The translations under genes were made by a program, and so were the position numbers. 64,000 nt of DNA from positions 930,001-994,000 of the forward strand of contig NZ_CP042862.1 of the NCBI RefSeq assembly GCF_008001015.1, in the 5' to 3' direction. The number at the start of each line of letters is the position of its first letter. Position 1 is the first letter of the stretch. The notes below the pieces were generated by a model. That model had not been told where the DNA came from, made no database searches, and worked only from the letters and a program-made list of their open reading frames with translations. This document shows, in pieces, positions 10,848 through 13,847 of the stretch. The DNA comes from Serinicoccus profundi. Its GTDB lineage: Bacteria > Actinomycetota > Actinomycetes > Actinomycetales > Dermatophilaceae.

Positions 10848-11684
10848 ATGCCCGAGGGACACACGCTGCACCGCCTCGCCCGGTCCTTGGACGCCGCCTT
10901 CGCCGGGACGGTCCCGCAGGTGAGCAGCCCGCAGGGGCGGTTCGCGTCCGAGGCGGCCCGGCTGGACGGGCAGCAGGTGGAGCGGGCGTGGGCGCACGGC
11001 AAGCTGCTCTTCGTGGACTTCGCCGGCGACCAGTCGCTCTACGTGCACCTCGGCCTCATCGGCAAGTGGTTCGTCCTGCCGGTGGATCCCCCCGGTGGTG
11101 AGCCGCCAGCCACCGGCCAGGTGCGGCTGCGGCTGCTCTCCGACACCCGGGTCGCGGACCTGCGCGGGCCGATGGCCTGCCGCCTCGTCGACGAGGCCGA
11201 GGTCGACCGCCTCGTCGCGCGGCAGGGCCCCGACCCCCTGCAGCCGGTGAGCGAGCTCAACGACCCGGACGCGGCATACCGGATGATCTCTCGCTCGGGC
11301 AAGAGCGTCGCCGAGCTGCTCATGGACCAGACCGTGCTGGCCGGCGTCGGCAACATCTACCGCTGCGAGGTGCTGTGGCGCCACCGGCTGCACCCGCTCA
11401 AGCCGGGCCGCTCGCTCAAGCGGGCCTCCTGGCAGCTCATCTGGGACGACCTCGTGAGCCTCATGCCGCTGGGGGTCCGCACCGGGACGATCATCACCCT
11501 CGACGACGTGGCCGAGGACACCCGGGCCAGCCTGGAGCGTGGGGAGACCCCGGACGTGCCGCGCGAGTTCGCCGTCTACAAGCGCACCGGCCAGCCGTGC
11601 CTGCGCTGCGGCGCGGCGATCCGGCACAAGGTCGTCGCCGGCCGCAACCTCTTCTGGTGCGGCGGCTGCCAGCGCCGCACCTGA
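10848..11684 (+). CDS. nei: Fpg/Nei family DNA glycosylase (Nei2-like)
   Basis: The 278-residue bifunctional glycosylase/AP lyase removes oxidised bases. It starts with the catalytic P-E pair (MPEGHTLHR), whose His-Thr-Leu form is typical of endonuclease VIII-type (Nei) enzymes rather than Fpg. The C-terminus has the zinc finger C251-C254-C271-C274, and the helix-two-turn-helix DNA-binding segment lies around LMDQTVLAGVGNIYR. ATG 10848 is fixed by the invariant N-terminal proline that follows it. Confidence 0.9.
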   Translation: MPEGHTLHRLARSLDAAFAGTVPQVSSPQGRFASEAARLDGQQVERAWAHGKLLFVDFAGDQSLYVHLGLIGKWFVLPVDPPGGEPPATGQVRLRLLSDTRVADLRGPMACRLVDEAEVDRLVARQGPDPLQPVSELNDPDAAYRMISRSGKSVAELLMDQTVLAGVGNIYRCEVLWRHRLHPLKPGRSLKRASWQLIWDDLVSLMPLGVRTGTIITLDDVAEDTRASLERGETPDVPREFAVYKRTGQPCLRCGAAIRHKVVAGRNLFWCGGCQRRT

Positions 11685-11721
11685 GCGCCCTGACCGCCCC
11701 GCCTCCGCCCCCGACTGACCG

Positions 11722-11831
11722 CCCGCCCCGCCTGAGCAAGCCTGCGTTGCCCGTTCCGGACCTGAGCAAGCTGAGTTCGCACGATGCACCATGGGCATGG
11801 TGCAGCGTGCGGACTCAGCTTGCTCATGTTG
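11722..11831 (+). repeat. Left inverted repeat with internal 64-bp palindrome
   Basis: The outer part begins CCCGCCCCGCCTGAGCAAGC. The inner part (11763-11826) is a near-perfect palindrome: 31-base arms starting TGAGCAAGCTGAGT, two mismatches, and a 2-base centre at CCATGGGCATGG. Its gapless inverted partner is 12991-13100. As RNA it would form a long hairpin, and it could also terminate transcription after nei. Confidence 0.85.
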
Positions 11832-11916
11832 CCGACGGGAGGGCGCGGCCGCCCGGGATCGAGCCGGTGCGGCGAGGGCCGGGCGTGCCATCGCTGATAC
11901 CTCGGATCGGGCGACC

Positions 11917-11925
11917 TGTGGATAA
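11917..11925 (+). promoter_or_regulatory. Perfect DnaA-box 9-mer
   Basis: TGTGGATAA is an exact complement of the consensus box TTATCCACA. It stands alone 40 bases before the DUF559 gene, inside the cassette. A lone box is not an origin; it may be coincidental or may tie expression to replication. Confidence 0.4.
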
Positions 11926-11964
11926 CGTCGTCGGCGGCGTCGCCGATCGGCCCACACTGACGGC

Positions 11965-12927
11965 ATGGACTCGCCTGCTCGTCTCCTCATCGCCACCCAG
12001 CTCCTCGATGCCCACGGCGGGGTGGTCTCCTCGGAGGCGCTGCTGGGCGCGGGGTTGACCTACAACGACATCCACGCCCTGGGCAAGGCCGAGATCGTGC
12101 TGCGGTTGCGGCGCCACGTCCTGGTCGACCGCAGGCGGTGGGAGGCGGCCCCGACCTGGGCGCGGCACGACCTGCGGGCCCGGGCCTTCGCCATCGCCCT
12201 GCCGGACCTGGGCTGGCACCCGGGTGACATCGTGCTGAGCTGTCACAGCGCCCTGGCGCTCTACCGCATCGACATCTACGGCACCGATGACCTGGTGCAT
12301 GCGTCGAGGGTCGAGCACGGACGGGGCCGTCGCAGCGAGGGCGTGTGGGTGCACGCGCCCGTCCCGAGGGCCCAGGTCTCGCGGGTCGACGGGGTGCCCG
12401 TCGCGTCGCCGGCGCTCGCGTCCCTGCAGGTCGCGGCCCTGTATGGCGTGGAGCCAGGGCTCGTGGCGGCCGACTCGGCCCTGCGCGACGGCCACTGCAC
12501 GCGCGAGGAGCTGTCGGCGTGCATCGATCTGACCTGTCTCAAGAACGGCCGGCCCGCAGCCCGCGTGGTCACCGAGCTCGCCGACGGGCGCCGGGAGAGC
12601 GCGGGGGAGTCACGCACCGGGTGGGTGCTGCATACCCTCGACGTGCCGCGCGCCATCCCCCAGGTCGTGATCCGGGACCGCGCGGGCGTGTTCGTGGCCC
12701 GCGCCGACTTCGGCCTGGAGGGGACGAGAGTCCTCGTGGAGTTCGATGGCCGGTTGAAGTATGAGGATCGCGCCGACCTCATCGCCGAGAAGCGACGCGA
12801 GGACCGGCTGCGCGAACTCGGCTACGAGGTCGTCCGGCTCACCTGGGAGGACCTGGCACACCCGCAGCGGGTGCTGGCCAAGATCCGCGCGGCGTTGGCC
12901 CGCGACCTGCGACGCCGGGCGAGCTGA
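11965..12927 (+). CDS. AbiEi-like / DUF559 (Vsr-like nuclease fold) protein
   Basis: The product has 320 residues. The N-terminal part resembles the winged-helix domain of type IV toxin-antitoxin AbiEi-family proteins (motif GVVSSEALLGAGLTYNDI, then R-rich strands). The C-terminal ~70 residues match DUF559/Vsr-type PD-(D/E)xK nucleases: VLVEFDG with Glu259 and Asp261, Lys265, then the EKRREDRLRELGY helix and VVRLTW strand. No AbiEii toxin is adjacent, so this is a solitary gene. The ATG follows CACACT by six bases, the same spacing as leaderless starts nearby. Such genes occur in many copies in actinobacteria; their role is not established. Confidence 0.75.
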   Translation: MDSPARLLIATQLLDAHGGVVSSEALLGAGLTYNDIHALGKAEIVLRLRRHVLVDRRRWEAAPTWARHDLRARAFAIALPDLGWHPGDIVLSCHSALALYRIDIYGTDDLVHASRVEHGRGRRSEGVWVHAPVPRAQVSRVDGVPVASPALASLQVAALYGVEPGLVAADSALRDGHCTREELSACIDLTCLKNGRPAARVVTELADGRRESAGESRTGWVLHTLDVPRAIPQVVIRDRAGVFVARADFGLEGTRVLVEFDGRLKYEDRADLIAEKRREDRLRELGYEVVRLTWEDLAHPQRVLAKIRAALARDLRRRAS

Positions 12928-12990
12928 GGCCCGATCCGGGCCCGCTGGCCACCTGAAGCGCGCTGGGGGATGCCGATCTGGGCTCGCTGG

Positions 12991-13100
12991 CCACATGAGC
13001 AAGCCGAGTCCGCATGATGCACCAGTGCCATGGTGCAGCGTGCGGACTCAGCTTGCCCAGGTAGAAAAACCGCAACGCCCGCTTGCTCAGGTGGGGCGGG
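12991..13100 (-). repeat. Right inverted repeat with internal 64-bp palindrome
   Basis: This is the reverse-complement partner of 11722-11831, with no gaps and about 20 mismatches in 110. Its palindrome spans 12996-13059. It sits between the convergent ends of the DUF559 gene and the LmbE-like gene, so a bidirectional terminator role is also possible. Confidence 0.85.
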
Positions 13101-13112
13101 CGTGGGCGGGCC

Positions 13113-13847
13113 TCAGCGCTCCCAGACCTGGGCTGCCCACCGGTAGCGCCTCGGGGCGCCGTCGCCGTCGGCGCCCTCGGGGTCGCCGAGGATCATGCCG
13201 AGCAGGTCACGCGGGGAGGGGTAGTCGTCGTCGAGGGCGGCGAGGTACTCGCGGTGGGCCTCCAGTGAGGCGACGCCCCGCTCGAAGGAGTCCGTCACAT
13301 CGACCTCGTGCGTCGGCGAGTGCCCGGAGGACGAGGCGATCCAGCGCACGCCGTCCCACGGCTCGGCCCCCTCGCTGATGAGCTCGGGGAAGATCCACCG
13401 GTTGCCCGCGGCCGCGACGGCGTCGATGACGCTCAGCCCGACGGCGCGGTGGTCGGCCTGGTTGAGACCGCCGTTCGGGAAGGTCTCGGCGTGCGAGATG
13501 GTCGTGACGACCTCGGGCCGGACCTCGCGGATGACCCGGGCCAGCTCGCGCCGCAGCCGCAGGTCGGCCTCGACGACGCCGTCGGAGAAGCCGTCGAGGA
13601 AGAGGACGGTCTCCACGCCCACCGCGCGGGCGCCGTCCCGCTCCTCCCGCTCACGCACCGGCCCCGCCTCCTGCGGCGGCATCGTCGCGATGCCGGCCTC
13701 GCCGCGGGTCACGAGGAGGTAGGTCACGTCCTTGCCCTCGTCGGTCCAGCGGGCGACCGCCGCGGCCGTGCCGTACTCGAGGTCGTCGGGGTGGGCGACG
13801 ATGCACAGGGCACGCTGCCAGTCGGTCGGGAAGGTCTGCAGGCTCAT
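13113..13847 (-). CDS. PIG-L/LmbE family zinc deacetylase
   Basis: The 244-residue protein has the LmbE zinc motif AHPDDLE (His19, Asp21, Asp22) and a second motif NQADHR (Asp132, His133). The family removes N-acetyl or other N-acyl groups from sugars, as in MshB of mycothiol synthesis and Mca. This copy lacks features that would assign it firmly to MshB or Mca. Its ATG overlaps the topoisomerase stop by four bases, so the two form a unit. Its end faces the right inverted repeat. Confidence 0.85.
   Translation of the reverse strand: MSLQTFPTDWQRALCIVAHPDDLEYGTAAAVARWTDEGKDVTYLLVTRGEAGIATMPPQEAGPVREREERDGARAVGVETVLFLDGFSDGVVEADLRLRRELARVIREVRPEVVTTISHAETFPNGGLNQADHRAVGLSVIDAVAAAGNRWIFPELISEGAEPWDGVRWIASSSGHSPTHEVDVTDSFERGVASLEAHREYLAALDDDYPSPRDLLGMILGDPEGADGDGAPRRYRWAAQVWER

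Follow-up and report, generated by a model that had tools for sequence, protein, structure and literature searches.

The window, by which we mean the whole 64,000-nt stretch of Serinicoccus profundi DNA that was analysed, contained a DUF559 gene framed by a long inverted repeat with a palindrome in each arm (Table 1). The two arms of the inverted repeat were 82% complementary over their 114 nt, aligned without gaps and lay 1155 nt apart. Within them, the arms of the upstream palindrome (11760-11793 and 11796-11829) were 34 nt each (91%), and those of the downstream palindrome (12993-13024 and 13031-13062) were 32 nt each (84%). An earlier note on this DNA had described inverted repeats, each holding a palindrome, around one gene with an AbiEi-like N-terminus and a DUF559 C-terminus, and both parts of that description were borne out. 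The upstream and downstream flanks of the gene matched each other in inverted orientation with a score of 74, compared with 23 for the best of 60 shuffles. When folded as single-stranded DNA, the 70-mers reached -36.1 (upstream) and -27.8 kcal/mol (downstream), with z-scores of -10.2 and -8.0, and none of 200 shuffles was as stable. The 12-bp end motif recurred once exactly 30 bp beyond each palindrome, at 11730 and 13081. A 26-nt direct repeat (88%) was also observed at 12931-12956 and 12973-12998, between the DUF559 stop codon and the downstream palindrome, its second unit overlapping the start of that palindrome by 6 bases.

Table 1. Features of the DUF559 locus, in window coordinates
Feature	Position	Strand	Remarks
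DUF559 gene, 320 aa	11965..12927	+	AbiEi-like N-terminal part and Vsr/EDxHD-type PD-(D/E)xK nuclease domain
Upstream 70-bp palindromic element	11760..11829	.	Core between two inverted ACCTGAGCAAGC-type end motifs
Downstream 70-bp palindromic element, same family as the upstream one	12993..13062	.	
Left arm of the 114-bp inverted repeat framing the DUF559 gene	11720..11833	+	
Right arm of the 114-bp inverted repeat framing the DUF559 gene	12989..13102	-	
Extra outer half-site GCCTGAGCAAGC	11730..11741	+	30 bp outside the upstream palindrome
Extra outer half-site ACCTGAGCAAGC	13081..13092	-	30 bp outside the downstream palindrome
Left neighbour: Fpg/Nei-type DNA glycosylase gene (nei)	10848..11684	+	Empty-site reference gene
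Right neighbour: PIG-L family protein gene	13113..13847	-	Empty-site reference gene

The window protein scored 22.2 bits against Pfam DUF559 (PF04480), above the gathering score of 20.6, and fell below the cut-off of REase_MTES_1575 (PF18741). Pfam reported no AbiEi domain for the window protein itself, and the AbiEi model of PADLOC matched it with an E-value of 1.4e-6. A Pfam scan of 47 aligned members, the window protein included, found AbiEi_4 in 43, DUF559 in 20 (E <= 0.01) and MTES_1575 in 17; the only other domains reported were AbiEi_3_N, PIN_9 and DUF2171, and the Y1 transposase domain was absent. Residues E215, D248, E259, D261 and K265 were invariant in all 47 proteins, and we take them to be the candidate PD-(D/E)xK active site. 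The AlphaFold2 model of the window protein had a mean pLDDT of 95.7, and among solved structures it best matched the AbiEi antitoxin 6y8q (E 1.9e-5). It also matched the catalytic domain of the homing endonuclease I-Bth0305I (3r3p; E 1e-3, TM 0.76 on target), whose fold we take to be the Vsr fold. A sequence search against solved structures gave no match below E 0.2. The dN/dS ratio was 0.15-0.20 among four Kribbella orthologues and 0.23-0.59 among seven window-clade DUF559 genes, compared with 0.13-0.23 for the PIG-L neighbour; these ratios indicate that the DUF559 protein is under selection and evolves faster than its neighbour. An AbiE-type toxin-antitoxin or phage-defence unit would account for the AbiEi-type domain and for the match to the PADLOC AbiEi models. 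This reading is highly improbable, as the window locus had no adjacent AbiEii nucleotidyltransferase, its neighbours being the glycosylase and PIG-L genes, and it leaves the nuclease domain and the dispersed repeats described below unexplained.

A BLAST search of the window palindrome against its own genome found at least 15 copies, two of them flanking the window gene; this number is a lower bound, as the count missed a sixteenth motif pair, at 3055060-3055129, with the appropriate span. Most of the 15 copies started ACCTGAGC (by eye), and 13 were intergenic according to heuristic GC-frame gene calls. In 10 of them the end motif was repeated 29-32 bp further out (three mismatches at most; raw count), oriented as the adjacent arm, and similar steps of 29-31 bp were seen as a raw observation in a second family (at L314, L327, L336, L346 and L347). 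The earlier note had also raised the possibility that dispersed copies cluster beside DUF559 genes, and this expectation failed: six DUF559 genes were found in the genome (matches at E <= 0.01), and 13 of the 15 copies were separated from every one of them by over 40 kb. Instead of one family clustering beside DUF559 genes, the comparisons described below indicate that each DUF559 gene has a repeat family of its own. Within the window family, 81.4% of cells paired in register, compared with 28-38% out of register. A selected hairpin is not claimed, because compensatory changes in this family did not exceed those in shuffles.

All six DUF559 genes of the genome had matching repeats on both sides, and the repeat sequence was different for every gene. 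Our first locus set comprised 35 loci, 4 of which were left out as too short; 24 of the 31 testable loci beat all 60 shuffles, and 7 had no significant pair. A larger comparison used 80 named loci, nearly all actinobacterial, which were the best 80 of 514 confirmed stretches, and therefore the sample is biased towards close relatives. Seven of them were left out with a flank shorter than 300 bp. Matched flanking repeats (score >= 28) were found at 44 of the 73 testable DUF559 genes, compared with 4 of 269 control genes taken from the same loci by our own GC-frame gene calls (Fisher p 4e-31); the remaining 29 loci were without a significant matched pair. Outside Serinicoccus and Ornithinimicrobium, matched pairs were present at 34 of 55 loci, with at least one case in 16 of 22 taxon groups. 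A contig filed as an Acidobacteria MAG (L066) carried a DUF559 relative that was 40% identical, for which misbinning or transfer is possible.

The repeats of the other DUF559 genes in the genome were dispersed to varying degrees, in scans whose counts are lower bounds with 40 of 168 candidates scored. The repeat of locus L020 was found at about 25 places or more (merged by hand) and that of L018 in at least 8 elements; L019 had at least 2. L017 had only its two flanks and L021 a local array, with no dispersed copy of either seen among the candidates scored. The L020 repeat, which matches the flanks of the DUF559 gene at 2751915, had the most matches among the own-genome repeats searched, and its family consisted of 30-32-bp units in tandem and inverted arrays, such as L352 (G000:C1 2585000-2586500). 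Two L018-family palindromes lay 0.9 kb apart at G000:C1 875884 and 876766 (L349), perhaps an old cassette with other content; tblastn with the six DUF559 proteins found no DUF559 gene or remnant between them.

The relationship between gene and repeat was followed by comparing the upstream flank of gene i with the downstream flank of gene j, a score of at least 28 being counted as a match; this design therefore removed most simple synteny. The input was 136 loci (80 named, 30 from the Kribbella search and 26 of the 35 of the first set), with L017, L020, L021, L033, L036, L039, L043, L047 and L049 left out, and 101 were kept once duplicates and loci with short flanks had been removed, together with reads that were short or contained N. 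The two flanks of the same gene matched at 72 of the 101 loci and did not at 29. Between different genes, matches occurred in 13 of 3612 comparisons (0.4%) below 35% protein identity, in 18 of 3556 at 35-40%, in 7 of 1494 at 40-45% and in 5 of 458 at 45-50%. Their frequency was 17 of 234 at 50-55% identity, 43 of 322 at 55-60%, 69 of 330 at 60-70% and 38 of 60 at 70-80%, and it reached 20 of 24 at 80-90% and 8 of 10 above 90%, so that 82% of comparisons matched above 80% identity. The matches at high identity indicate common descent of gene and repeat, that is, co-divergence. Strong cross-matches between distant proteins (L038/L072, 37%; L121/L127, 41%) were set aside as artefacts of synteny, the loci being syntenic. 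L038 and L072 represent the same genomic site in two relatives; their DUF559 genes are only 37% alike and point in opposite directions, an arrangement suggestive of a hot spot or of one cassette having replaced another.

Dispersal differed greatly between repeat families, and it followed the presence of the gene. Across 31 genomes of the genus, the window palindrome had 29 matches in its own genome (both strands counted) and a single one in G028, the remaining 29 genomes having none. The CCTGAGCAGAGAA family had 18 matches in G011, 24 in G017, 13 in G021, 23 in G028 and 21 in G030, all of which carry the cognate gene at the nei/PIG-L site. G029 had 10 matches; there the best DUF559 match to the window protein was 47% identical and lay elsewhere. 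The other 25 genomes had none. The element of a sister gene in G026 was hardly dispersed, with 3 matches at 2 places in that genome only, and the search did not recover the element's own other flank at that cut-off. A family searched in 16 Kribbella genomes gave 25, 20, 18 and 14 matches in the four genomes with a cognate gene 79-100% identical. The other 12 genomes (cognate at most 69% identical) gave 8, 2, 2, 1 and eight zeros; the 8 matches were in G060, which lacks a close cognate gene, and these copies are, at a guess, relics. For the families traced, there was one close cognate gene per genome and there were many repeats. These distributions indicate that dispersed copies are restricted to lineages that have the cognate gene, or presumably once had it.

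The same results bear on the idea that the repeats are passive, MITE-like sequences that replication errors or a different transposase move around, the DUF559 nuclease being a host enzyme that only processes nearby hairpins. The stability of orthologous copies, which stay put in one clade, agrees with this idea, and the part of the protein in repeat movement is itself our inference. Passive repeats would not be expected to pair privately with gene lineages, even between the genes of one genome, or to be missing from most genomes without the cognate gene, and we regard this explanation as quite unlikely.

The nei/PIG-L site was surveyed in the 28 genus genomes, of 31 searched, that had a PIG-L match. 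The arrangement nei-DUF559-PIG-L in window orientation was found in 7 of them, and a DUF559 gene on the other strand in one (G001). No DUF559 match lay between nei and PIG-L in 17 genomes, the largest unoccupied gaps being those of G006 and G010; in G007 the two stop codons were 13 bp apart. G029 had a lone palindrome of the sister CCTGAGCAGAGAA family at the site, and in G002 and G012 nei was elsewhere or outside the stretch. The question of empty sites in relatives, raised by the earlier note, was thus answered for the cassette by the 17 genomes without DUF559 and for three single palindromes by the Kribbella sites described below, and the cassette was not at one fixed place in all relatives, its window arrangement being confined to 7 of 28.

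Alignment of G029 with G028 was 94% on both sides of the site, with about 1.25 kb comprising the gene and one palindrome absent from G029. In several shared regions G029 was closer to G028 and G030 than G011 is, which makes loss of the gene probably likelier than primitive absence. Reading the opposite orientation in G001 as a flip of the same cassette was not adopted, as the tree grouped its gene with those of G016 and G024, not with the seven syntenic genes; separate arrival of the G001 gene appears as likely as a flip. DUF559 genes of the same clade were also observed on either side of nei in G001 (L028/L269) and G016 (L029/L272), the strand in G001 being opposite to that of the window.

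Solo palindromes were followed in Kribbella through ten solo sites, in a scan that scored 25 of 243-330 candidates per genome and whose counts are lower bounds; three of the ten sites were aligned. At the corresponding place 7, 4 and 5 relatives, respectively, lacked the palindrome, and our reading of the alignments placed the three palindromes in short gaps just after stop codons. One further solo site was common to two species (L170/L194). On parsimony only, the absence of these palindromes in relatives is read as insertion. No target-site duplication was evident by eye at the three empty sites, where the flanks diverge. An insertion sequence of conventional type, whose terminal inverted repeats are palindromic, whose gene is a PD-(D/E)xK transposase and whose MITEs are the solo palindromes, would explain why inverted repeats bound the gene and why empty and solo sites occur. 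It would fit poorly with one cognate gene per genome beside many repeats in the families traced, and with the lack of a clear target duplication at the three empty sites. A search of 72,556 plasmid records gave two partial matches, none over 80% of the protein, and a search of 50,697 phage records gave no match to it, which also argues against an insertion sequence, and we consider this reading very unlikely.

Constraint on the elements was examined in a six-genome clade, in 40 regions where one method detected 48 elements and a second one 52 motif pairs. The 48 copies of this second family mostly started CCTGAGC (by eye). The span was exactly 68 bp in 47 of the 52 motif pairs; two others, of 67 and 69 bp, were both in G029, and the remaining three, of 78-79 bp, came from a single local array (L321), where the motifs were probably paired falsely. 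In 46 pairs of copies at orthologous sites, the 13-bp ends were 97% identical, a value biased upward to some degree by the detection of elements through similarity to one element, compared with 79% for the interior, 80% for the adjacent 60 bp and 91% for the farther flank. Faster evolution of the interior than of its surroundings was rejected, the interior falling below the adjacent DNA in only 24 of the 46 pairs. Concerted evolution within genomes was likewise rejected, as mean similarity was 0.838 between copies at orthologous sites (64 pairs) vs 0.773 between different copies within a genome (202 pairs). Decay of the ends in the gene-less G029 was not significant (imperfect ends in 4 of 5 vs 18 of 47; Fisher p 0.15), and the 67- and 69-bp spans there were noticed after this test. 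Most sites in the clade were common to several species, and therefore the elements are old there and their spread slow. Together with the old shared sites, the intact ends and drifting interiors point to selection on a pair of putative binding sites held at a fixed span.

Such a pattern could also be produced by a local regulator: the AbiEi-like protein would bind DNA, the palindromes would serve as its operators or as bidirectional terminators, and its regulon would be made up of the dispersed copies. Conserved ends with a drifting interior are as expected for binding sites of value to the host, and the AbiEi-type N-terminal part, the heuristically intergenic position of 13 of 15 own-genome copies and the three solo insertions directly after stop codons, as read from the alignments, agree with it. 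We nevertheless regard a regulator as unlikely. Operators are not required downstream of a gene, yet each matched pair places one element there, and the conserved candidate active site would have no role; insertion positions vary between species and have empty sites, and terminators need no gene-specific sequence. Because the repeats were gene-specific and on both sides, terminators were rejected as the whole story, with a side-role as terminators possible. The suggestion that the palindromes are ordinary terminators with no association with DUF559 genes was not supported, the family being tied to these genes.

The findings in this study make it probable that the DUF559 gene and its palindromes form a system like REPIN/RAYT whose enzyme is an unrelated nuclease. 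Comparison between genomes shows that flanking pairs are specific to each gene, that gene and repeat diverge together, that dispersed copies keep to lineages which have the cognate gene or presumably once had it, that sites occur in occupied, solo and empty states and, in one family, that the ends and their spacing are strongly conserved; binding, cutting and copying of the elements by the protein are putative. The earlier note had suggested that a Vsr-fold protein and its own palindromes may be paired much as RAYT and REP are. Gene-specific flanks, lineage-restricted copies and empty and solo sites lent that suggestion strong comparative support, and the part of it that did not stand was the expected position of the copies, those of one family not lying beside DUF559 genes.

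Under the REPIN/RAYT-like reading, each DUF559 protein would recognise a private pair of inverted 12-13-bp motifs about 68-70 bp apart. Judged from the folds, a protein dimer may bind both motifs, with the AbiEi-type domains reading the ends and the nuclease domains placed over the middle. As I-Bth0305I is described to bind, in the form of a dimer, a target that is nearly 60 bp long (PMC3943268), an inverted motif pair spanning 68-70 bp would suit such a dimer. The dimer might then make a cut or nick inside the palindrome or inside the cruciform that it can adopt, and the products of cutting, we guess by analogy with REPIN/RAYT, would rarely give rise to further solo copies in the gaps between genes. 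The gene would usually be single-copy between two elements, gained at a site or lost from it leaving one palindrome.

With somewhat more belief than doubt, we extend this reading to DUF559/AbiEi-type proteins at large, as a widespread, undescribed group of repeat-associated DNA-processing enzymes of actinobacteria. Each lineage would maintain and slowly spread its own palindrome, a nuclease dimer would act on a motif pair of fixed span, and selection on the dispersed motifs would imply a role for the host too. The constraint on the ends would fit a benefit of the elements to the host. If this is true, a protein family of unknown function gains a function, and the REPIN/RAYT way of life, in which one chromosomal enzyme gene is accompanied by its own population of small palindromes, will have emerged anew around an unrelated enzyme. 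As the putative site lies in the flanks of the gene itself, the rules of recognition could be read from sequence and tested at once; the co-divergence comparison alone provided 72 natural putative enzyme/target pairs.

No homologous system was found here. In a partial survey, the titles and the beginnings of abstracts gave no literature link between DUF559 and repeats, and an earlier description elsewhere is possible. The Pfam families DUF559 (PF04480) and REase_MTES_1575 (PF18741) correspond to the C-terminal domain of the window protein; their description lines read 'unknown function' and 'REase_MTES_1575', and name no repeat partner. CGTC-tagged REPs are likewise dispersed palindromic repeats and are stated to lack a dedicated transposase (PMC3733652). 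They differ in the sequence of their tag and have no DUF559 link, 'DUF' and 'Actinobacter' having no occurrence in the main text of that source.

With the AbiE type IV toxin-antitoxin system, the window protein shares a domain, the AbiEi-like part that matched 6y8q. Here this part is joined to a nuclease domain and no AbiEii lies beside the gene, so the window locus is not an AbiE pair. The EDxHD/Vsr-like homing endonuclease I-Bth0305I is similar in the fold of its catalytic domain (3r3p) and in a target of almost 60 bp that is bound as a dimer (PMC3943268). Unlike that enzyme, the window gene had no intron or intein seen around it, the DNA-binding part is AbiEi-like, and the palindromes proposed as its targets are dispersed and private, in place of a single allelic site.

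The closest resemblance is to the REP/REPIN-RAYT system. By membership ours is not a RAYT system, as both the HUH/Y1 transposase and the GTAG tag are absent. The enzyme is an AbiEi protein with a Vsr/EDxHD-fold nuclease instead of an HUH/Y1 tyrosine transposase (TnpA-REP), and inspection by eye found no GTAG tag at the repeat ends in two families (15 and 48 copies). It also differs in its actinobacterial hosts and, in the two families examined, in a fixed span of 68-70 bp and outer motifs at 30 bp. A REPIN is described as an inverted pair around a spacer, with more copies in genomes that keep the RAYT gene, and that gene is single-copy, vertically inherited and not seen on plasmids (PMC8049555). 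The same source reports little evidence yet for a benefit of REPINs to the host, with gene regulation or DNA folding offered as speculation. In both systems an inverted motif pair around a spacer flanks the enzyme gene and is also scattered through the genome, with copies commoner where the gene is present (PMC8049555 and PMC3733652). In our case the families traced had one close cognate gene per genome, and the plasmid search gave two partial matches. By analogy, the DUF559 gene and its palindromes would work like a system of a known kind.
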